A stretch of 64,000 nt of DNA, from NCBI GenBank assembly GCA_021107755.1, contig JAIOSF010000022.1:62001-126000 (forward strand), given 5' to 3'. The stretch is from Arcobacteraceae bacterium (GTDB taxonomy: Bacteria > Campylobacterota > Campylobacteria > Campylobacterales > Arcobacteraceae). Position numbers and translations under genes: made by a program. Numbering within the stretch: position 1 is the stretch's first letter; each line of letters opens with the position of its first letter. The notes beneath the pieces were generated by a model, which worked only from the letters and a program-made list of their open reading frames with translations, was not told the DNA's origin and did no database searches. Below, piece by piece: positions 3,737-12,701 of this stretch.

Positions 3737-4378
3737 TTATAAGTCTACTAATTCTTGAGGGGATTTAATAATAAAATCAGCACCACTTTTCTCTAACTCT
3801 TTCACAGTTCTAAATCCCCAAGAAACTCCAACTGCTATCATATTTGCATTTTTTGCTGTTTTCATATCTGTTGAAGTATCTCCTACAAAATATATCTCTT
3901 GTGTTTCTATTTGAAATTTTTTTGCTATGTCCAAAGCCGCAGTTGGATCTGGCTTTTTTTCTACACTCTCTTTTTGACCAGCAACCACAACAAAGGGGAT
4001 ATCTGGTAACAGTTTTTCCACATAAAGTTTTGTAAACTTGTCTGGTTTATTTGATAAAACAGCAAGAGGTATTTTTTGTGACACTAATTGATTTAAAAGT
4101 GCTTTTATACCCTCATAAGGTTTTGTATTTGTATGTAAGTTTTGTTCATAAAACTCTATAAACAGATCCAAAGCCTCATCAAGATAATTCTTTGATATAT
4201 ATCTAGGCATTGCATTTTCTATCAATACTCTAGCTCCATCACCTACAAAATGTTTATATTGTTCTAAAGAGTGTGTAGGGCAATTAAGCTGCCTAAGAAC
4301 TTTATTTGCATTGATTGCTATATCTTCAAGAGAATCTATAAGTGTTCCATCTAGATCAAATATTACTGCTTTTTTCAT
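3737..4378 (-). CDS. gph: HAD-family phosphoglycolate phosphatase
   Basis: A 213-residue haloacid dehalogenase-fold hydrolase. It has motif I DLDGTLIDS at residues 8-16 with the nucleophile Asp, motif II VLSNKP near 110, a Lys in the VEKKPDP region, and motif IV FVGDTSTDM near 167. The helical cap and length match Gph/PGP enzymes that remove phosphate from 2-phosphoglycolate; other small phosphate esters are possible. An AAAGGAG site precedes the ATG. It lies just upstream of the tRNA-Leu gene on the same strand. Confidence 0.85.
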   Translation of the reverse strand: MKKAVIFDLDGTLIDSLEDIAINANKVLRQLNCPTHSLEQYKHFVGDGARVLIENAMPRYISKNYLDEALDLFIEFYEQNLHTNTKPYEGIKALLNQLVSQKIPLAVLSNKPDKFTKLYVEKLLPDIPFVVVAGQKESVEKKPDPTAALDIAKKFQIETQEIYFVGDTSTDMKTAKNANMIAVGVSWGFRTVKELEKSGADFIIKSPQELVDL

Positions 4379-4437
4379 AAAAGAACTCCTTTAGAAGTTA
4401 TAAAGAGATTGTAGCTTGATTTTTAGGAATTTGTCAA

Positions 4438-4521
4438 TGGTGCAGATGATGAGATTTGAACTCACACGCCGTTAAGCACGAGCCCCTCAAGCCCGCGTGT
4501 CTACCATTCCACCACATCTGC
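4438..4521 (-). tRNA. tRNA-Leu (anticodon GAG)
   Basis: On the minus strand an 84-nt cloverleaf folds with acceptor stem GCAGATG/CATCTGC. The D arm contains GGTAGACAC. The anticodon stem CGGGC/GCTCG closes the loop TTGAGGG (anticodon GAG). A long variable arm typical of leucine tRNAs follows, then a T arm with loop TTCAAAT. Discriminator A is followed by an encoded CCA (4438-4440). It reads CUC/CUU codons. Confidence 0.95.
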
Positions 4522-4557
4522 ATTTTTAGAAATCGAATTATAGCAGAAAATTGCTGT

Positions 4558-4803
4558 TTAAATCTTAAACTCTAACTCAATCTCTTTTGCTTTTTCTAAT
4601 CCTATCATTGTAAGGCTATCTTCAGTGATAAAATTTTCACTTTTAAGATATTTAAGATACTTTTTTCCAACTTTTTTTGTAAATACTCTACTCTCTTCCA
4701 TCACTCCAACTATATCACTAAAGTTTTCATCCTCTCGCTTTTTATAGAGTGCCAAAAGCAAAACCCTTATCTCTATATTTTCCATATTTAAATCTAAACT
4801 CAT
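4558..4803 (-). CDS. Hypothetical 81-residue protein, last gene of the Bat-like operon
   Basis: The true start is ATG 4801-4803, which overlaps the stop of the MFS gene as ATGA; longer frames upstream only shadow that gene. The product is charged and helical (ALYKKREDENF, then TKKVGKKYLKYLKSENFIT, ending in a Glu-rich helix). This helix-helix-strand pattern is compatible with a small winged-helix domain, but no named family is recognised. The coupling places it in the same transcript as the transporter and Bat genes. Confidence 0.7.
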   Translation of the reverse strand: MSLDLNMENIEIRVLLLALYKKREDENFSDIVGVMEESRVFTKKVGKKYLKYLKSENFITEDSLTMIGLEKAKEIELEFKI

Positions 4804-5975
4804 AAAAATACCCTTTTGTAATAATATGCAACACCTATAAATACTGTACCTAATAATATTGTAATTATATCTAATGTAACTATTGAGGCCATTAATCCTA
4901 TAAAAAATGTAGTTGCAACTGTTGAGAGCATAAATATCATCTCGTTGTATGCTAATACTCTTCCAAGATATTTTCTCTCCACCTCTTCTTGTAGCATAGT
5001 ATAAGTATATGACCAAATAGTTGTAGTAGTTAGTCCCACTAAAAACATCCCAATTAATCCTAAATAAAAATTGTCTTGCAAAAATGCCCATAGTATGATA
5101 GCTCCACCTTGGGCTAAAAACATATAAAACATTCTTTCTTTTGTTATCCAACTACTTAGAAATAATGGTCCAACCATCAAAGCTAATGCTCTCATACCAT
5201 TTGTAAATCCAATAGCAAGAGGTACTGCTATGATATATTTATAAGACTGATCAGCTAGTAGTGTTACAATAGTATCAAATATAGTAAAACCAACAGTTGA
5301 GTGTAAAAACATATAATGGAAAAGATATTTGTTGTTTTTGAGATATTCAAACCCATCTTTGATAGTTTGAAACATACTATTGGTAATTTTTTCTACCTCT
5401 ATACTAAACTCTATTTGTGACAAAATGGCAATCGCTACTAAAAATAAAGCTCCATCAATAATAAATGATGTTTTCACACCAAGTAAACTTACTACAACTC
5501 CACCTAGTGCCATACCTGCTGTAAAAGTTATAGACCATACCATTGAGTGTATCTCATTTGCTTTTATAAGTGCTTCACCACTTAATAGTTTTGGTAAAAC
5601 AGTCATCACTGTTGTAAAGAATATAGAGGCACTTCCCATCCGTATAAAAAGAAATAACATCAAAAGCCATACATCTTCTATACTATTAATCAACAAAAAT
5701 GCTATGGTCATACTCATCTCTGTAATAAGAAGTATCAACATAAGTTTTTTTACCGCTATTCTATCTACAATTGAGCCATTAAACGGAGAAAAAATAACCC
5801 CTGGGAGAAAATGAAAAGCTGTTACTGTTGCAATTATTAAAGCACTTGCATCAAATTGTACAAGCATAGTATATATAGCTACATTTGAAAACCAAGCACC
5901 AAAATATGCTATAAATTGAACATAGGTAAGATGTCGTACAGGCTTATTTAGCCTTAAAAGCTCAAGATGTGTCAA
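4800..5975 (-). CDS. MFS transporter
   Basis: A 391-residue integral membrane protein with about 10-12 hydrophobic segments. The signature after the second segment is GSIVDRIAVKKLM, a variant of the major facilitator loop D-R-x-x-K/R. Overall it resembles the MFS_3 group of exporters (FLPGVIFSPFNG, MLQEEVERKYLGRV). The substrate cannot be read from the sequence. It follows the periplasmic adaptor gene by 6 nt and overlaps the next small gene by 4 nt, so the two may act together across the envelope. Confidence 0.85.
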   Translation of the reverse strand: MTHLELLRLNKPVRHLTYVQFIAYFGAWFSNVAIYTMLVQFDASALIIATVTAFHFLPGVIFSPFNGSIVDRIAVKKLMLILLITEMSMTIAFLLINSIEDVWLLMLFLFIRMGSASIFFTTVMTVLPKLLSGEALIKANEIHSMVWSITFTAGMALGGVVVSLLGVKTSFIIDGALFLVAIAILSQIEFSIEVEKITNSMFQTIKDGFEYLKNNKYLFHYMFLHSTVGFTIFDTIVTLLADQSYKYIIAVPLAIGFTNGMRALALMVGPLFLSSWITKERMFYMFLAQGGAIILWAFLQDNFYLGLIGMFLVGLTTTTIWSYTYTMLQEEVERKYLGRVLAYNEMIFMLSTVATTFFIGLMASIVTLDIITILLGTVFIGVAYYYKRVFL

Positions 5976-5981
5976 GTTAGA

Positions 5982-6692
5982 TTATTTAAATTCTATTTTT
6001 ACAAGTTTTGAAAATTTTTCTGGACTTGGAATAATTATCTCACATTTATATGATGAGATATGTTTACTATCAGCTACATCATAAAGTTTTGCAATTTTTA
6101 AATCTGACTTTTTATCATCAAGATATATCTCTTTATCCTGTATTGTTGCAGCATCATCTATAGGGATAAATATCTCAACTTTTCCTTTTGATAAATCCAT
6201 AGCCGTATACAAAAGTGTTCCTGGAGTTACATAATCCCCAACCTCTACTGATACATCATAAATATAGCTATTTTTTTCACTTAAATTTTTGTTTTTAATT
6301 GTATCTTTTAGTGTTGCAATTTTTGTTTTTAGGTCATTTATTGTTGAAGCAGTATTTAGTATCACTATTTTTTGATTATCTCTATCAAACTGTGATTTTG
6401 AAGATACCCTTTTAAAACTTTCCAAAGTATTATCTTGAAGTTTTAATACCTGTTGCATATTCCCTAATTTCTCTTGTGATTGTTCTAATTCAATCAAATC
6501 AACACTATCATCAAGTTTTACAACCATTGCATTTTGTGCTATTTTTGACTCTAATGCACTATTAGCATATATCACTTTTCCACTTACACTTGATTTTACA
6601 GTATAGCTATTAATCGGCTCTACTTTTGCAAAATAAGTTGTAGCAAAACTAATTGAACTTAACAACAATAAACCACTTACAATTTTTTTCAT
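5982..6692 (-). CDS. HlyD-like periplasmic adaptor (membrane fusion) protein
   Basis: A 236-residue protein with an N-terminal signal peptide (KKIVSGLLLLSSISFA). A lipoyl-like half-motif follows (SSVSGKVIYANSALESKI). A coiled-coil hairpin spans about residues 65-140. The second lipoyl half is VEVGDYVTPGTLLYTAM, and a short beta domain ends the protein. This is the minimal layout of RND/MFS adaptor subunits, though it is shorter than most. It sits between an unknown exported protein and an MFS transporter in one operon. No outer-membrane channel gene is nearby. Confidence 0.75.
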   Translation of the reverse strand: MKKIVSGLLLLSSISFATTYFAKVEPINSYTVKSSVSGKVIYANSALESKIAQNAMVVKLDDSVDLIELEQSQEKLGNMQQVLKLQDNTLESFKRVSSKSQFDRDNQKIVILNTASTINDLKTKIATLKDTIKNKNLSEKNSYIYDVSVEVGDYVTPGTLLYTAMDLSKGKVEIFIPIDDAATIQDKEIYLDDKKSDLKIAKLYDVADSKHISSYKCEIIIPSPEKFSKLVKIEFK

Positions 6693-6709
6693 CTTTTCTA
6701 TCCTAAATA

Positions 6710-7459
6710 TTATTCTATTTTTTCTAAACGAAATATATCATCATTAATCTTTATATTTAGTTTAATTTTACTATTATTTTCATCTGTGAATATACCTTTA
6801 TAGGTTGCTTCATTGTATTTGAATATTATACTGTTATAGTTTAACAAATTATTACTATAATCAAATATAACATTAATCTGTGATTCATAATAATAATTAA
6901 AAAAGCTATCTAAATCACTTTTTGAAATCCTAAAGTAAACCTCTTTAGATACAAAAGTATCAATATGATAAATATCTTCAACCCCTAATTTTGCTAAAAA
7001 TGAATCACTATTTTCATCATATTTTATACTTTGAAATTTTGGTTTTCCATAAATTACTTTAAAAGCTTTATTAATACTTCTTTGTATAATAGGCTCTAGA
7101 TTTTTTGAATCTTCATAAAATTTTTTAAGATTTTTAAGCTTACCATTATAAAAAGCCACCTGACCTTGGTATTTTTCATCTATCTTTTTTTGCTCATCTA
7201 CCCTACTTTCTTTTACAGCTTTTAATCTTTGAATATAGTTAAAATACTGCTCATATTTTATAGGCTCTAAATTTGCATCATCATCTTGTAACTTTTCTTT
7301 TTGAGGTAAAATTGGTTTTAGATTTTCTAACTCTTCATTTACAAAATAATTCACCATAACATTGATTTTTTCATCCACTGGTAAACTCTTATAAGGATTC
7401 ACAACAGCTAAGGAATAAGAACTCAATAGTAAGATGAAAAAAATAAATTTTGCTATCAT
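6710..7459 (-). CDS. Exported protein of unknown function
   Basis: I place the start at ATG 7457-7459, which forms an ATGA overlap with the preceding DUF1566 gene; an upstream in-frame codon would overlap that gene more. The 249-residue product has a signal peptide (MIAKFIFFILLLSSYSLA). A region rich in Glu and Lys, likely helical or coiled-coil, covers residues 45-130. The C-terminal half is rich in Asn, Tyr and Phe and looks beta-structured. I recognise no family. Its place inside the Bat-like operon suggests an envelope role. Confidence 0.7.
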   Translation of the reverse strand: MIAKFIFFILLLSSYSLAVVNPYKSLPVDEKINVMVNYFVNEELENLKPILPQKEKLQDDDANLEPIKYEQYFNYIQRLKAVKESRVDEQKKIDEKYQGQVAFYNGKLKNLKKFYEDSKNLEPIIQRSINKAFKVIYGKPKFQSIKYDENSDSFLAKLGVEDIYHIDTFVSKEVYFRISKSDLDSFFNYYYESQINVIFDYSNNLLNYNSIIFKYNEATYKGIFTDENNSKIKLNIKINDDIFRLEKIE

Positions 7460-7878
7460 TTTAAATATCTTACACATCGTACAGTATATTTATTATCTCT
7501 TGTACTAAAATTTACAATACCAGTTTTAAAATCCACATACCAAAATTGATTAGCATTAAGATGATAAGGACTCTTTGACCAATATTTTGAACTAGTAGTA
7601 TATTGAAACTCTTTTTTAATAGTTACATTTTTATTTGTTATATCCATAATAGTTTGAAGTTCTTTAATTGTTGCCATTTTCCAATCTATATAACCATTTA
7701 ATATTAGATTTTCACAATATGTTTTAGCCATAGTTATATCTTCAAGATATTGTGTTGATTCAAGATTATCTTGCCACATTATATTTGCTGTTTTATCTAT
7801 AACTATATTTAAGCTTTTTTCAAAGTCATTTGCAAATATTGAGATACTAACCATAAAAAATACAATAAAAGTTTTCAT
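7456..7878 (-). CDS. DUF1566 domain exported protein (second copy)
   Basis: A 140-residue protein with a signal peptide (MKTFIVFFMVSISIFA) and one DUF1566 (Lcl C-terminal) domain. Markers are NIMWQDN, YCENLILNGYIDWKMAT, QFWYVDF and a final VRCVR. The chosen start is ATG 7876-7878, overlapping the upstream stop by one base; a TTG one codon earlier is possible. DUF1566 domains occur in surface and lectin-like proteins of unclear ligand. It is a diverged paralogue of the gene just upstream. Confidence 0.8.
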   Translation of the reverse strand: MKTFIVFFMVSISIFANDFEKSLNIVIDKTANIMWQDNLESTQYLEDITMAKTYCENLILNGYIDWKMATIKELQTIMDITNKNVTIKKEFQYTTSSKYWSKSPYHLNANQFWYVDFKTGIVNFSTRDNKYTVRCVRYLK

Positions 7879-8432
7879 CAATACTCACCAGCTTTTTTTG
7901 ATATCTCTCGTACACATCGTATATTGTACCTTTGCATATCTGATGTAAAGTTTGTAATTCCATCTTTGAAATCCACATACCAATTATTATCTTCAGCCAT
8001 CAAACTTTTTGAACCACTCCAATATTTATTTGGGATAACATATTTTATCTTTTGACTTGTTGCTGGATTATGTTTTTGGTAATCAATCAAATTTAAAAGT
8101 TCATCATAAGAGGGAACTCTCCAATCTTTTCTATTGGCTAAAATCAAATCTCTACAATATATTTTGTACTCTAATATATTAAATTGTTTTGATATATTAG
8201 TAAGATTATCTTGCCACATAAGTGTACCATCTACAAAAGTACTATCTGAATATTTTTCTATTTTTGTTTGTTTAATTTTCTCTAAATACTCTTTATATGC
8301 TTCCACTTTTTGAGGATACTTTTCATCTACATATTTTTTAATAACTATTGCAACTTCATCTTTTGTAATATTAGTTTGAACAGCACTTCCCCACTCAAAC
8401 TCTTGTGCAAAACTATTTGTTATAAACAACAA
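7878..8432 (-). CDS. DUF1566 domain exported protein (first copy)
   Basis: A 184-residue product as drawn from TTG 8430-8432. Markers are GTLMWQDN, YCRDLILANRKDWRVPSYDELL, YWSGSKS, NWYVDF and NIRCVRE, a full DUF1566 domain. From that TTG the signal peptide lacks its basic start. Extending back to an ATT at 8457-8459 gives IRYKILVILLLFITNSFA, a proper signal peptide, with an AAGGG site 6 nt upstream inside the end of batD. The real start may therefore be the rare AUU codon. Its stop overlaps the next gene's start. Confidence 0.78.
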   Translation of the reverse strand: MLFITNSFAQEFEWGSAVQTNITKDEVAIVIKKYVDEKYPQKVEAYKEYLEKIKQTKIEKYSDSTFVDGTLMWQDNLTNISKQFNILEYKIYCRDLILANRKDWRVPSYDELLNLIDYQKHNPATSQKIKYVIPNKYWSGSKSLMAEDNNWYVDFKDGITNFTSDMQRYNIRCVREISKKAGEY

Positions 8433-8440
8433 TAAAATTA

Positions 8441-9940
8441 CTAAAATTTTGTATCTAATCGTATACCCTTTTTAACTAAACTATTTAAAATATCTATTAT
8501 CTGTTTTTTTACACTCTTAAATTGTTCATTATCTAGCTTTGTTTCAAGAGTAAATATCATTTTATCTAAATCTTCATCAATTTTTATAAAAACCACCATA
8601 GTTTTTAATAACTCATTTTGTGTTTTAGCTTTTTTTACTATTTTTATAAGTGGAATATCCTCTTGTTTTTTTGTTTGTTTTTTTAACATAACAATAACTA
8701 CAACACCTATAACACCAACCATCAGTCCTAAAAGAAAATAGAGGACTTTTTCATTGTTGGATAATTGTACATTTTGGATTTGAGGTGTTGTTTTAGTAGT
8801 TTGAATATCATCATTAGCCACTTCAAGTTGTGTTACTTTTTTCTCTACTGCTTCCACTTTTATATCAAAACTTTTTGTTTTGATTGTTTTAATTAATTTT
8901 GTCTCTTTATCAAAATACTTTAAACTAATTTCAGGAATTGTGAAAGCTTTTGTAGGAACTATTGAGAAAGCTTTTGTATATACTCCCCCGTAAATATTAT
9001 TTTGAATATCATATTTTTTTTCAGAAGGATTTTCATACACAGTTGCATTTGGAATATTTAATTTTACCTCATCGATATCATCAACATTTCCACGACCATT
9101 TATAGTTATTTTATAAGATACAGCTTCCCCCTCTTTTACACTATTTTTATCAATTGTAGCATCTATAGAAAAATCACCTATTAGTTTTACATTTTGTGGT
9201 ATTGGTTTCACATCTAGTTCAATTTTATTTGAATACACTTTTGTTCTTTTAGTTGGTGCTGTTACAAAAAAACCGGTGTTGTATCTATTTTGAGTAGTAA
9301 CTGCTTCAATTTTTAAAGGTCCTATTTCTAGCTTTCCACTTTTTTGTGGGAAGAGGATATATTCTAACTTTTGAAAGGTATATTGATTATCTATTGGTAG
9401 ATTTTCATTTGATTTTAACTCTTTAACCCAAAAACTTTCAAACTTGGGCTTTTCAAACTCTAATCCAATAATATTAAGATCTTTTTTATATTTAAACAAA
9501 AGAGTTAAATGGATACTCTCCCCCACATAAACCTCTTTTTTATCTACTTGTATAGTTAAGTCATAATCAGCTGAGACTGTTTTTTCCACTTTTTGCATAC
9601 TTATTTTTTGTGGTTGTGTTTTTTCTATTTTTCCATTCACAGTTATTTCAAAAGAAGGTATTGTTATATCTTTTGTTGGTCTAAAAGTATAATTTTTGAT
9701 TAGTTTATCACTTCGTACACCATTAATTATATTGGTTTGAGTTGAAGTTCCTAAACTTTGAACTATAAAACCATCAATATCTTTTATATCTGGCATCTTG
9801 ATATCTTTTCCACTAACACTTAGTGAAAACTCTACACTATCCCCTTGAAAAAAACTCTGTGGTGCACTTAAAGTTACTTGTGCAAATGCAATTATGGGAA
9901 AAATTAATAATAAAAATATCTTACCAAGGTTTTGTTTCAT
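8441..9940 (-). CDS. batD: BatD family protein
   Basis: A 499-residue protein with a signal peptide (LLLIFPIIAFA). Several beta-sandwich repeats of the BatD type follow (FFQGDSVEFSLSVSG, EVYVGESIHLTLLFKY, VKEGEAVSYKITINGRGN). One membrane segment near residue 410 and a helical cytoplasmic tail end the protein. BatD proteins belong to Bat (Bacteroides aerotolerance-type) operons and are thought to assemble with VWA proteins at the inner membrane and periplasm. Its start overlaps the end of the VWA-TPR gene by 20 nt, so the two are translated together. Confidence 0.88.
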   Translation of the reverse strand: MKQNLGKIFLLLIFPIIAFAQVTLSAPQSFFQGDSVEFSLSVSGKDIKMPDIKDIDGFIVQSLGTSTQTNIINGVRSDKLIKNYTFRPTKDITIPSFEITVNGKIEKTQPQKISMQKVEKTVSADYDLTIQVDKKEVYVGESIHLTLLFKYKKDLNIIGLEFEKPKFESFWVKELKSNENLPIDNQYTFQKLEYILFPQKSGKLEIGPLKIEAVTTQNRYNTGFFVTAPTKRTKVYSNKIELDVKPIPQNVKLIGDFSIDATIDKNSVKEGEAVSYKITINGRGNVDDIDEVKLNIPNATVYENPSEKKYDIQNNIYGGVYTKAFSIVPTKAFTIPEISLKYFDKETKLIKTIKTKSFDIKVEAVEKKVTQLEVANDDIQTTKTTPQIQNVQLSNNEKVLYFLLGLMVGVIGVVVIVMLKKQTKKQEDIPLIKIVKKAKTQNELLKTMVVFIKIDEDLDKMIFTLETKLDNEQFKSVKKQIIDILNSLVKKGIRLDTKF

Positions 9941-11699
9941 CTGTTTGACTCTCTTTTTGTGTATTTGCTTTTCTTAATAATATTGGTGTTGTTTGTTTCT
10001 CTAACTGTTCCATCCATTTTCTCTCTTCCATTTGAGATATCTCTTCTTTTTTTACATTATCTTGGCTCTGTTTTGATTGAGATTTTTCATCTTTACTATT
10101 TTTATTTTCTTCTAATTTTTCTTCTTGCTTTTGTTGCTCTTTTTTATTCTCTTTTTTTTCTTTATCTTGCTGTTGCTTATCTTCTTGTTTATTTTTCTCT
10201 TTATCTTTTTTATCTTTATCTTGTTTATTTTGATTCTCTTGATTTTTTTGATTCTCTTTTTGCTCTTCATTATTTTTATTATCTTTATTTTCTTGATTTT
10301 CTTGATTCTTGTTTTGTTGTTTCTCTAACTCTTTATTTACGATATCGAGATTTTCCCTTGTTTCCTTATCCTCTTTTATTTTTAAAGATTTTTCATAAAA
10401 CTCTTTTGCTTTTTGTAGCTCATTAAGCTTTACATAGCTATTTCCAATATTGTGTAACTTCTTTCTCTCCAACTCAGCATCTTCTGTAACAACTTTTTTA
10501 TAAGTATCTATACTCTCTTGATATTTTTTATCTTTATAAAGAGCATCTCCTAAGTTATACAAGCTTTGAGCAGTTGCGGGTAATTTTCTATATTCAGTGA
10601 TAGCTTCATTGTATTTTTTCTCACTATAGAGTTGATTTGCTTTTTGTATAGTTTGAAAATTGAAAATATCTGCATCTACTTTTGATGGTACACAATACAA
10701 CCCTACTAAAAAAAACACTGCTATATTTTTTTTGAAGATTCTTGTTGGGAGTGAACTCAATGCTAATAAAAAGAAAAATAATCCTAAAGCCAATGGATAA
10801 TAAAAAAGCTCAGTATATGTTTTAAACTTTTGAACCGAAAGCTCCTCTTTTTGTGACTGTGTATTGATTCTATTGAGTATCGCTTTTACATCACTATTAT
10901 CTAAACTAAAATCTACATACCCACCATTTGTTTGAAGGCTTAACTTTTTTATTGATTCATTGAGTGTTACAGTTACTATATTTCCATCTTTATTGGTTAA
11001 ATATCCACCTTGTTTATTTGGTATTACTGCACCGTTTTTTGTAGCAACTCCTATAGTATATACAGCGATATTTTTATCTTGGGCATATGCTATCTCCTCT
11101 TTATAATCATCACTATTTCCACCGTCACTTAAAATTATAAGATTTTTTACATTGAAATCTTCAAGCATATAATTAGTAGCATCAAGTGTAGCAAAGATAT
11201 TAGAACCATTTGGAAAGTTAAGATCTGTCTCAAGGTTTTTTACTATATAATTTAATGAAATAAAATCCTCAGTGACTGGACTTAAAACAAAAGAGTCTTT
11301 TGCAAAAAGTAGAACTCCTATTGTTGTATTTTGACTTAATTCTATGATTTGTTTAAGTTTCTCTTTGGCTAGGGAGATACGATTTGGATAAATATCTGTT
11401 GCCATCATAGAGGTTGATACATCTAGTGCTATAACTATTGGGATAAGTTTTTGTTTTATATCTTGCTCTTTTTGATTGATAACTGGGCGACCAAGTGCTA
11501 CTATAAAAAGTATTAGAGTAAAAAACAACAACCCATTTCGTGTATTTTTATCCAATGCTTTTCCACCAACACTTAACTTATCTAAGAGATCTTTAGAAAA
11601 ATATTTTTCCATACTGTTTTTTGATGTAAGGAGTAATACAATTAAAAGCACTAAGGGTATTAACATCATATAAAATACTTTAGGATATAAAAAACTCAT
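9921..11699 (-). CDS. VWA-TPR fusion membrane protein (BatA/BatB plus BatC-like)
   Basis: The start is ATG 11697-11699 (MSFLYPKVFYMML); an in-frame TTG 45 nt upstream overlaps the promoter and is less likely. The 592-residue protein has two N-terminal membrane segments (about 8-24 and 57-69). A von Willebrand A domain carries the metal site D-V-S-T-S at 93-97, and further membrane segments lie near 300-340. Three TPR-like repeats span about 355-460. A long Lys/Glu/Gln/Asn-rich tail follows. BatA/B and BatC are usually separate proteins. It leads the operon. Confidence 0.88.
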   Translation of the reverse strand: MSFLYPKVFYMMLIPLVLLIVLLLTSKNSMEKYFSKDLLDKLSVGGKALDKNTRNGLLFFTLILFIVALGRPVINQKEQDIKQKLIPIVIALDVSTSMMATDIYPNRISLAKEKLKQIIELSQNTTIGVLLFAKDSFVLSPVTEDFISLNYIVKNLETDLNFPNGSNIFATLDATNYMLEDFNVKNLIILSDGGNSDDYKEEIAYAQDKNIAVYTIGVATKNGAVIPNKQGGYLTNKDGNIVTVTLNESIKKLSLQTNGGYVDFSLDNSDVKAILNRINTQSQKEELSVQKFKTYTELFYYPLALGLFFFLLALSSLPTRIFKKNIAVFFLVGLYCVPSKVDADIFNFQTIQKANQLYSEKKYNEAITEYRKLPATAQSLYNLGDALYKDKKYQESIDTYKKVVTEDAELERKKLHNIGNSYVKLNELQKAKEFYEKSLKIKEDKETRENLDIVNKELEKQQNKNQENQENKDNKNNEEQKENQKNQENQNKQDKDKKDKEKNKQEDKQQQDKEKKENKKEQQKQEEKLEENKNSKDEKSQSKQSQDNVKKEEISQMEERKWMEQLEKQTTPILLRKANTQKESQTDETKPW

Positions 11700-11718
11700 G
11701 TGCAATTGTATAGTATAG

Positions 11719-11744
11719 ATTATAAAATATCCCTTTTTTTTCAA
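11719..11744 (-). promoter_or_regulatory. Probable sigma-70 promoter of the Bat-like operon
   Basis: On the minus strand a perfect TATAAT (11719-11724) lies 19 nt before the chosen ATG, with TTGAAA (11739-11744) 14 nt upstream of it. The spacer is short, but Campylobacterota promoters depend mainly on the -10 box. The 5' leader would be about 10-12 nt with no obvious ribosome site. Confidence 0.5.
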
Positions 11745-11760
11745 ACTACAAATATAAAAA

Positions 11761-11787
11761 CTAGCACTCTATTGAGTTATTTGCTAA
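11761..11787. promoter_or_regulatory. Degenerate CIRCE-like dyad between the divergent operons
   Basis: CTAGCACTC, then 9 nt, then ATTTGCTAA. Compared with the HrcA operator TTAGCACTC-N9-GAGTGCTAA, the left arm matches 8 of 9 and the right arm 6 of 9 with exact spacing. It lies between the Bat promoter and the hrcA promoter, so weak HrcA binding or a decayed site are both possible. Confidence 0.4.
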
Positions 11788-11812
11788 ATTTTTATTTTTT
11801 TTATTATATTAC

Positions 11813-11841
11813 TTGACATTTGAACGCTCATTTGATATAAT
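11813..11841 (+). promoter_or_regulatory. Sigma-70 promoter of hrcA-grpE-dnaK
   Basis: TTGACA at 11813-11818, a 17-nt spacer, and TATAAT at 11836-11841: a full consensus housekeeping promoter, unusual for this group where -35 boxes are rarely conserved. The CIRCE operator begins 5 nt downstream and would cover the transcription start. Confidence 0.85.
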
Positions 11842-11845
11842 TTTA

Positions 11846-11872
11846 TTAGCACTCAGAGTTTTGAAGTGCCAA
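11846..11872. promoter_or_regulatory. CIRCE heat-shock operator
   Basis: TTAGCACTC, 9 nt, AAGTGCCAA. The left arm is perfect and the right arm differs from GAGTGCTAA at two positions. It lies immediately after the -10 box of the hrcA promoter, the usual place for HrcA to repress the hrcA-grpE-dnaK operon at normal temperature. Confidence 0.9.
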
Positions 11873-11897
11873 ATTAATGAAAAATGGTTATAAGTAA

Positions 11898-12701
11898 ATG
11901 ATTGATAAAAAAGAGTTTTTATTGGATTCTATTATACGAGCATATATAGAACACCTTGAACCTATTGGTTCTGGGCAGTTAAAATCTATGTATGATATAG
12001 CCTACTCTCCTGCTACTATTAGAGGATACTTTAAAAAGTTAGGAGAAGAAGGTTATCTTGCTCAAGAGCATTCAAGTAGTGGAAGAACTCCAACTACTGA
12101 AGCTTTAAAAGAGTATTGGTCAAATAGATTGAATATAAACATTGGACTAATAGACTTTGAGAGACTAAATATTTTATCAAAGCAAATAGGACTAACTGTA
12201 TTTTTAAAAGAGCAACAAACTCAAGTTTTAAATAGAGTTTTAAATATTGAAAATCTTTATTTATTATTAGAGTTTAGTTCATTTTCTATAACTATTAAGT
12301 ACAACAATCCACTCCATAAGTTTTTAAATGATATGTGTGGGTTAGAGGCTTTGAATATTTTGGAAGTATCAAAACAAGTTGGTGCTACAGATTTATATAC
12401 GGAGCTTAATAAATATCTTTTTAATAAAGATTTTGAGGTTATCAATATCAAAGAGTTTTTAAGACTTTGTGTTGATTATGATCTTGAAGAGATCTATATT
12501 AATAGATTTTTAACAGGTAATGTGATGAATAGACTAGAAAATGGTATATATTATCATGGTGAAGTTGGATTAAATCAAATTTTACCAGAAAACTATATGG
12601 GTATTGCACATGATGCCATTGTAGGAAATAAAAAATACAAGATGTTAGTTATAGGTGAATTATCAAAAGACTATGAATATTTTTATAAAGGAATTATGTA
12701 A
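11898..12701 (+). CDS. hrcA: Heat-inducible transcription repressor HrcA
   Basis: A 267-residue protein with an N-terminal winged helix (EPIGSGQLKSMYDIAYSPAT, then IRGYFKKLGEEGYL and HSSSGRTPT). A GAF-like dimerisation core and a C-terminal helix follow. HrcA binds CIRCE operators with help from GroEL. It is shorter than the roughly 340 residues of Firmicutes HrcA, as usual in Campylobacterota. The CIRCE site upstream makes it self-regulated. grpE starts on the base after its stop codon. Confidence 0.93.
   Translation: MIDKKEFLLDSIIRAYIEHLEPIGSGQLKSMYDIAYSPATIRGYFKKLGEEGYLAQEHSSSGRTPTTEALKEYWSNRLNINIGLIDFERLNILSKQIGLTVFLKEQQTQVLNRVLNIENLYLLLEFSSFSITIKYNNPLHKFLNDMCGLEALNILEVSKQVGATDLYTELNKYLFNKDFEVINIKEFLRLCVDYDLEEIYINRFLTGNVMNRLENGIYYHGEVGLNQILPENYMGIAHDAIVGNKKYKMLVIGELSKDYEYFYKGIM

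Follow-up and report, generated by a model that had tools for sequence, protein, structure and literature searches.

Ordinary Bat operons, as found in Bacteroides and Leptospira, encode a MoxR ATPase, a DUF58 protein, VWA and TPR proteins and BatD, and the biochemical role of these proteins is unsettled. According to the excerpts of the respective reports that were available, the bat operon of Riemerella is induced by heat (PMC11834572), and the bat cluster of Leptospira contains htpG, with the HtpG protein being lower in a batABD mutant (PMC3557215). A literature search yielded no paper linking Bat proteins with Arcobacter, Campylobacterota, flagella or a membrane fusion protein among the matches listed, as judged by titles and abstract starts. 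The locus described here lies in a window of 64,000 nucleotides (C25:62001-126000) of a genome consisting of 33 contigs that is 99.95% complete. With slightly better than even confidence, we read it as part of a dispersed Bat (MoxR-VWA) system of distinct lineage, namely its BatB/C-BatD arm, which is joined to a block of periplasmic adaptor, MFS transporter and the small protein P81 and works as a stress-linked envelope machine.

Eight open reading frames, all on the minus strand, run from 11699 to 4558. This confirms the overlapping or nearly touching genes, together with their domains, that had been reported from a sequence-only reading of this DNA. Neighbouring genes overlap or are separated by at most 17 bases, with spacings from the VWA-TPR gene to the P81 gene of -20, about -19, -1, -4, +17, +6 and -4 bases, the second of which, between BatD and the first DUF1566 protein, presumes a non-standard start codon at 8459 and becomes +8 if the TTG at 8432 is used. 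The first gene (9921..11699) encodes a BatB+BatC-like VWA-TPR protein of 592 aa (PF13519, 43 bits; TPR, 47 bits) with the MIDAS motif DVSTS at residue 93, for which the nearest NCBIfam models are BatB and BatC of Leptospira, at scores below the cut-off. BatD (8441..9940, 499 aa) carries a signal peptide and a single C-terminal membrane span and matches PF13584 in three stretches with 105.5 bits against a cut-off of 24.1. It is followed by two exported DUF1566/Lcl_C proteins, encoded at 7878..8432 (PF07603, 70.8 bits) and 7456..7878 (140 aa; PF07603, 85.4 bits, scanned from 7881). The first of them has no ATG, GTG or TTG start leaving a signal peptide, the ATT at 8459 would give one, and a TAA at 8474-8472 marks the opening of the frame (window 8432-8474). 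Its true start probably lies further upstream, at this ATT, and the anomaly reflects either the use of a non-standard start codon or an error in the sequence. The row continues with an exported protein of 249 aa (6710..7459), which has relatives in only two other genomes among the loci read (G011 and G039), a short, soluble HlyD/AcrA-like periplasmic adaptor of 236 aa (5982..6692; HlyD_3, 24.9 bits), an MFS transporter of 391 aa with a TTG start (4800..5975; PF07690, 93 bits, with MFS_1 and MFS_3 over the cut-off) and P81, a predicted winged-helix protein of 81 aa (4558..4803). In the Pfam scan, neither the 249-aa exported protein nor P81 reached the cut-off of any family. With BatD, VWA and TPR families over their cut-offs and adaptor, MFS and DUF1566 genes added, the locus is indeed Bat-like and of unusual make-up, as had been proposed. 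A tRNA-Leu gene (4438-4521) sits past the 3′-end of the row, and the divergent neighbour at the other end is, judging from the translations, presumably hrcA-grpE-dnaK. A scan of 4300-12000 returned no terminator-like site, a weak result since chance alone would give only 1.5, and a sigma-70 scan over the row returned 60 sites versus 50 expected.

The same reading had called the locus a Bat locus without MoxR and DUF58. This holds for the window, as all matches of the genome lie on other contigs, but not for the organism, and absence of the two proteins was therefore rejected. MoxR (AAA_3, 222.6 bits) was found at C8:104676, beside a gene that we take to be rpoC, and the sole DUF58 match of the genome (110.9 bits) at C6:93359, near a presumable gyrA. 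The sole other VWA_2 match is a BatA-like protein of 303 aa with an intact MIDAS at C1:1948, accompanied by a membrane protein of 142 aa that is labelled DUF4381-like by position and topology, Pfam assigning it no family; the gene beside this pair is presumably hemA. The Bat set of this genome is thus spread over four loci on four contigs and not lost. The genome encodes the same protein set as the ordinary Bat operon, namely a BatD domain protein, a VWA protein with MIDAS and TPR repeats, MoxR and DUF58, and the overlap of the VWA-TPR and BatD genes is a further likeness. However, there is no contiguous operon with MoxR at its front, and since the parts lie on four contigs, the set is classed as a dispersed variant and not as an ordinary bat operon. 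Further differences are the fusion of VWA and TPR in one protein, a BatD that belongs to a separate clade and is tied to an adaptor, and the addition of two DUF1566 proteins, an MFS protein and a winged-helix protein. As a side observation, the DUF58 gene comes after a 458-aa response-regulator-like gene (L013 3871-6085), and a 442-aa gene occupies the same place before DUF58 in G011 (L123), the likeness of the two being one of position.

Within the genus, for which four genomes were sampled, all eight genes occur in the same order in the window genome and in one other species (G011, L056), where the row adjoins what we take to be hrcA-grpE. The possibility that the order is unique to this strain was therefore rejected, although its conservation is limited to the window genome and this one congener. 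In G039, one DUF1566 gene, the exported protein, the adaptor and P81 are found at a separate locus (L234), and this genome also has an ordinary bat gene row elsewhere (L047). G028 shows DUF4381-BatA-VWA-BatD up to the end of the contig, and the adaptor was not found in this genome, which is 61% complete. In another genome of the family survey, G020 (L084), a contiguous bat operon of the ordinary type is located about 2.6 kb behind grpE-dnaK, placing bat genes near the dnaK locus for a second time.

A search of 61 genomes of the family revealed BatD in 49 of them. The BatD tree (50 rows, with the second copy of G046 entered twice) splits into two deep clades with support of 100/100; open reading frames shorter than 390 aa (L057, L069, L077, L086) were omitted from it and assigned by best BLAST hit. 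Clade A comprises 15 genomes and 18 loci (one assigned by best hit) and stems mostly from contiguous moxR-DUF58-DUF4381-BatA-VWA-TPR-BatD operons; L048, which its first-hit label had grouped with the window BatD, falls into clade A in the tree. Clade B comprises 35 genomes (three assigned by best hit only) and contains the window BatD. An adaptor gene follows BatD at all 31 readable clade-B loci, four others that end at contig or stretch ends being excluded, whereas this is the case at none of the 18 clade-A loci. It follows directly at 29 of the 31, and behind the DUF1566-DUF1566-exported genes in the window genome and G011. The proposal that a Bat part adjoining an adaptor and an MFS gene would be conserved is supported by this linkage and by the MFS genes in the relatives' blocks, and the adaptor, as the one specific neighbour that clade-B BatD retains, names a testable partner for a protein of this system. 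A VWA gene directly before BatD is found in only three of the 35 clade-B genomes (window genome, G011 and G028).

DUF58 is present in 47 of the 61 genomes. In quick trees built from 48 DUF58 rows and 46 BatA rows, clade-B and clade-A genomes separate almost as they do for BatD, the exceptions being the second DUF58 locus of G020 (L108) and G001, both long-branched. G046 contains both BatD types as well as one DUF58 and one BatA of each type. The clade-B-type DUF58 occurs in 32 of 35 clade-B genomes versus 1 of 26 others (Fisher p ~9e-13, uncorrected for kinship), the latter count omitting G001 with its 35% identical, long-branched DUF58. The three clade-B genomes without it are G028 (61% complete) and the fragmented G032 and G043. 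Consistently, 11 of the 12 genomes without BatD also have no DUF58. Since DUF58 and BatA, although encoded at other loci, share the split of BatD, clade B stands, going by these trees and counts with the kinship of the 61 genomes uncorrected, for a distinct Bat lineage whose parts are scattered yet co-inherited. The idea that the window BatD had strayed from a bat operon of the ordinary type was also considered and rejected, as BatD, DUF58 and BatA of this genome all group with the clade-B set.

The predicted structure of the adaptor (AF2, pLDDT 91.3) shows a signal helix and strands, plus a helical hairpin in which both helices have 33 residues. Its closest solved folds are AcrA and MacA, with a best TM score of 0.73 (AcrA 2f1m) at 12-16% identity, and EmrA of 8zar is also among the matches. 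The adaptor hence shares the fold of the EmrAB, AcrAB and MacAB adaptors and is encoded alongside an MFS pump. In contrast to these systems, it is a soluble protein of 236 aa, its only hydrophobic span (residues 4-22) ending at a signal-peptide-like site with no span after it and thus no EmrA-like membrane anchor, its hairpin has helices of 33 residues, and no gene for an outer-membrane channel was found within the eight-gene operon. For the MFS protein, the nearest NCBIfam model is TIGR00900 (129 bits), followed by Mef and EntS models, all below the cut-off; sequence searches of the PDB with the MFS protein and with BatD yielded no match at the thresholds used. For P81, AF2 (pLDDT 93.9) predicts a winged-helix domain of four helices, the third being conserved and lysine-rich. 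The MarR, HxlR, MntR and AF1382 folds were tied in VIA-align (Z ~9-10 over ~70 residues), so that the fold is shown but not the function; Foldseek E-values were above 0.05 and sequence matches in the PDB weak only.

Two putative operators lie between the row and its divergent neighbour. The hrcA side has a perfect sigma-70-type TTGACA-17-TATAAT promoter with TG extension (11813-11841) upstream of a CIRCE element (11846..11872, plus strand). Before the VWA gene, a CIRCE-like element on the minus strand (11761..11787) is a candidate HrcA operator; it is off at 3 of 18 defined positions, with one arm near-perfect and the other degenerate, and a counterpart with equally many mismatches stands at the corresponding position in G011. 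When the VWA-side stretch was shuffled, so good a match arose in 0/2000 and 1/2000 cases, figures that are flattering because the first site was already known when the pattern was selected. Genome-wide, the pattern gave 22 strand hits versus 4 for the reversed control, and the best matches precede genes that we take to be htpG, hrcA, clpB, groES-groEL and a divergent hsp20-like pair. An inverted-repeat listing of the promoter region included neither element. As the operon faces hrcA-grpE-dnaK and a CIRCE-like site precedes VWA in two species, heat-shock control of the eight-gene operon by HrcA appears likely. Between the divergent hsp20-like genes, two adjacent CIRCE elements (L232/L233, G000:C25:40133-40191) provide one operator per promoter, which is the same layout as proposed here for hrcA and VWA.

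An alternative explanation is that a Bat remnant shares its transcript with an unrelated unit, an efflux-type adaptor-MFS pair with a small regulator of its own, their link being co-expression only. We regard this as rather unlikely, although much of the wider distribution speaks for it. The MFS protein is found in 54 of 61 genomes of the family (E <= 1e-60), in two cases behind flhA without the adaptor (L147, L148), and the adaptor and P81 occur without MFS in two others (L234, L236). G008 (L149) has kept flhA-adaptor-MFS-P81 while BatD and DUF58 are both missing, and adaptor and MFS are likewise kept without BatD at L164, L166, L167 and L171, from which it follows that the adaptor can work without Bat. 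Moreover, the adaptor profile, which also picks up paralogues, matches 137 of the 397 genomes of the phylum, and in a survey of its neighbourhood (67 loci in named GTDB genomes) the adaptor is followed by a molybdopterin oxidoreductase-like gene, and not by Bat, at 30 of the 32 loci L184-L215, the contig ending there in the remaining two. The unrelated spread of the downstream genes, which the sequence-only reading had named as evidence against a single system, was hence partly observed. The secretion or efflux module that it had seen downstream has an adaptor fold beside an MFS protein and no channel gene in the operon; a strict efflux cassette was rejected, as adaptor, MFS and P81 separate from one another in relatives. 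The adaptor-MFS unit can thus do without Bat. On the other hand, clade-B BatD is never without the adaptor where loci are readable, and the pair is found at three different genomic places, namely behind flhA, a recN-like gene or VWA, which argues against mere co-expression. Comparison of the loci indicates that the adaptor-MFS-P81 block is joined to the Bat arm in the window genus and that the same BatD lineage keeps the block in most of the family.

The most frequent of these places raises the further possibility that the BatD-adaptor-MFS block is primarily an accessory of the flagellum, serving envelope passage, motor stability or control, with Bat being secondary. In 30 of 35 cases, the start of the clade-B BatD gene and the end of flhA (identified by PF00771) are -4 to +14 bases apart, in a run often ending in P81. 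Where the contig reaches that far, the genes before BatD are fliR-flhB-664aa-fliI-flgL-flhA, with fliR, flhB, fliI and flgL presumed from reading the sequences. No VWA gene adjoins BatD in these relatives. Malaciobacter, Halarcobacter, Poseidonibacter and others show the order flhA-BatD-adaptor-oxidoreductase-MFS-(P81). Such blocks (L154, L159 and L162 for the three genera, respectively) share with the window an orthologous clade-B BatD or its neighbours, an adaptor of 49-56% identity, MFS and, in L162 and L159, P81, but differ in lying behind flhA, in having no VWA, DUF1566 and exported protein genes and in their oxidoreductase. A flagellar role would also fit with Arcobacter flagellar loci being described, in the part of the source available, as reshuffled and their regulators as unknown (PMC9321776), and the linkage touches the open question, raised there, of what organises these loci. 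Nevertheless, we consider such a role improbable, since the window genome and G041 keep the block though flhA lies elsewhere, and since BatD and DUF58 are jointly missing in six g11 genomes of the survey that retain flhA. A reading that embraces both settings, in which clade-B BatD and its dedicated adaptor form one envelope machine, encoded behind flhA in most genera, whereby Bat and export are coupled, depending on the genus, to flagellar assembly (flhA) or to heat shock (HrcA, in the window genus), can be offered as a tentative and somewhat doubtful generalization.

Under the preferred reading of a dispersed Bat arm joined to the adaptor-MFS-P81 block, the complex, its transport activity and its regulation may be pictured as follows. 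The MoxR ATPase and DUF58, encoded elsewhere, would work together with BatA and VWA-TPR, the VWA proteins of the membrane, and these would form with BatD a scaffold at the inner membrane and in the periplasm for the maintenance of envelope proteins during stress. In the VWA protein, the first two spans are connected by a lysine-rich loop, and by the positive-inside rule the VWA and TPR domains would be located in the periplasm together with BatD and the adaptor. The soluble adaptor may dock on either BatD or the MFS protein, helping to move a periplasmic substrate or to shield it, P81 is a possible local regulator, and in the window genus release from HrcA repression would switch on the operon together with the heat-shock genes. 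The locus is therefore probably a Bat variant for stress-induced envelope maintenance, to which an export role might be added. Of the undescribed envelope system envisaged earlier, the unusual combination of BatD and adaptor stands, whereas its core is best read as the known Bat system in variant form.

Beyond the family, the short adaptor is paired across the phylum with the oxidoreductase-like gene (~570 aa; L184-L214), a pairing with no obvious joint function; the window genome contains no close relative of this oxidoreductase, its best match being 23%. Distant relatives of the adaptor (L241, L242, L247) lie between what we take to be an RND-like pump (~1026 aa) and a channel-like gene (~385 aa). 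P81, in turn, closes many of the flhA-linked flagellar operons (e.g., L070, L075 and L082).
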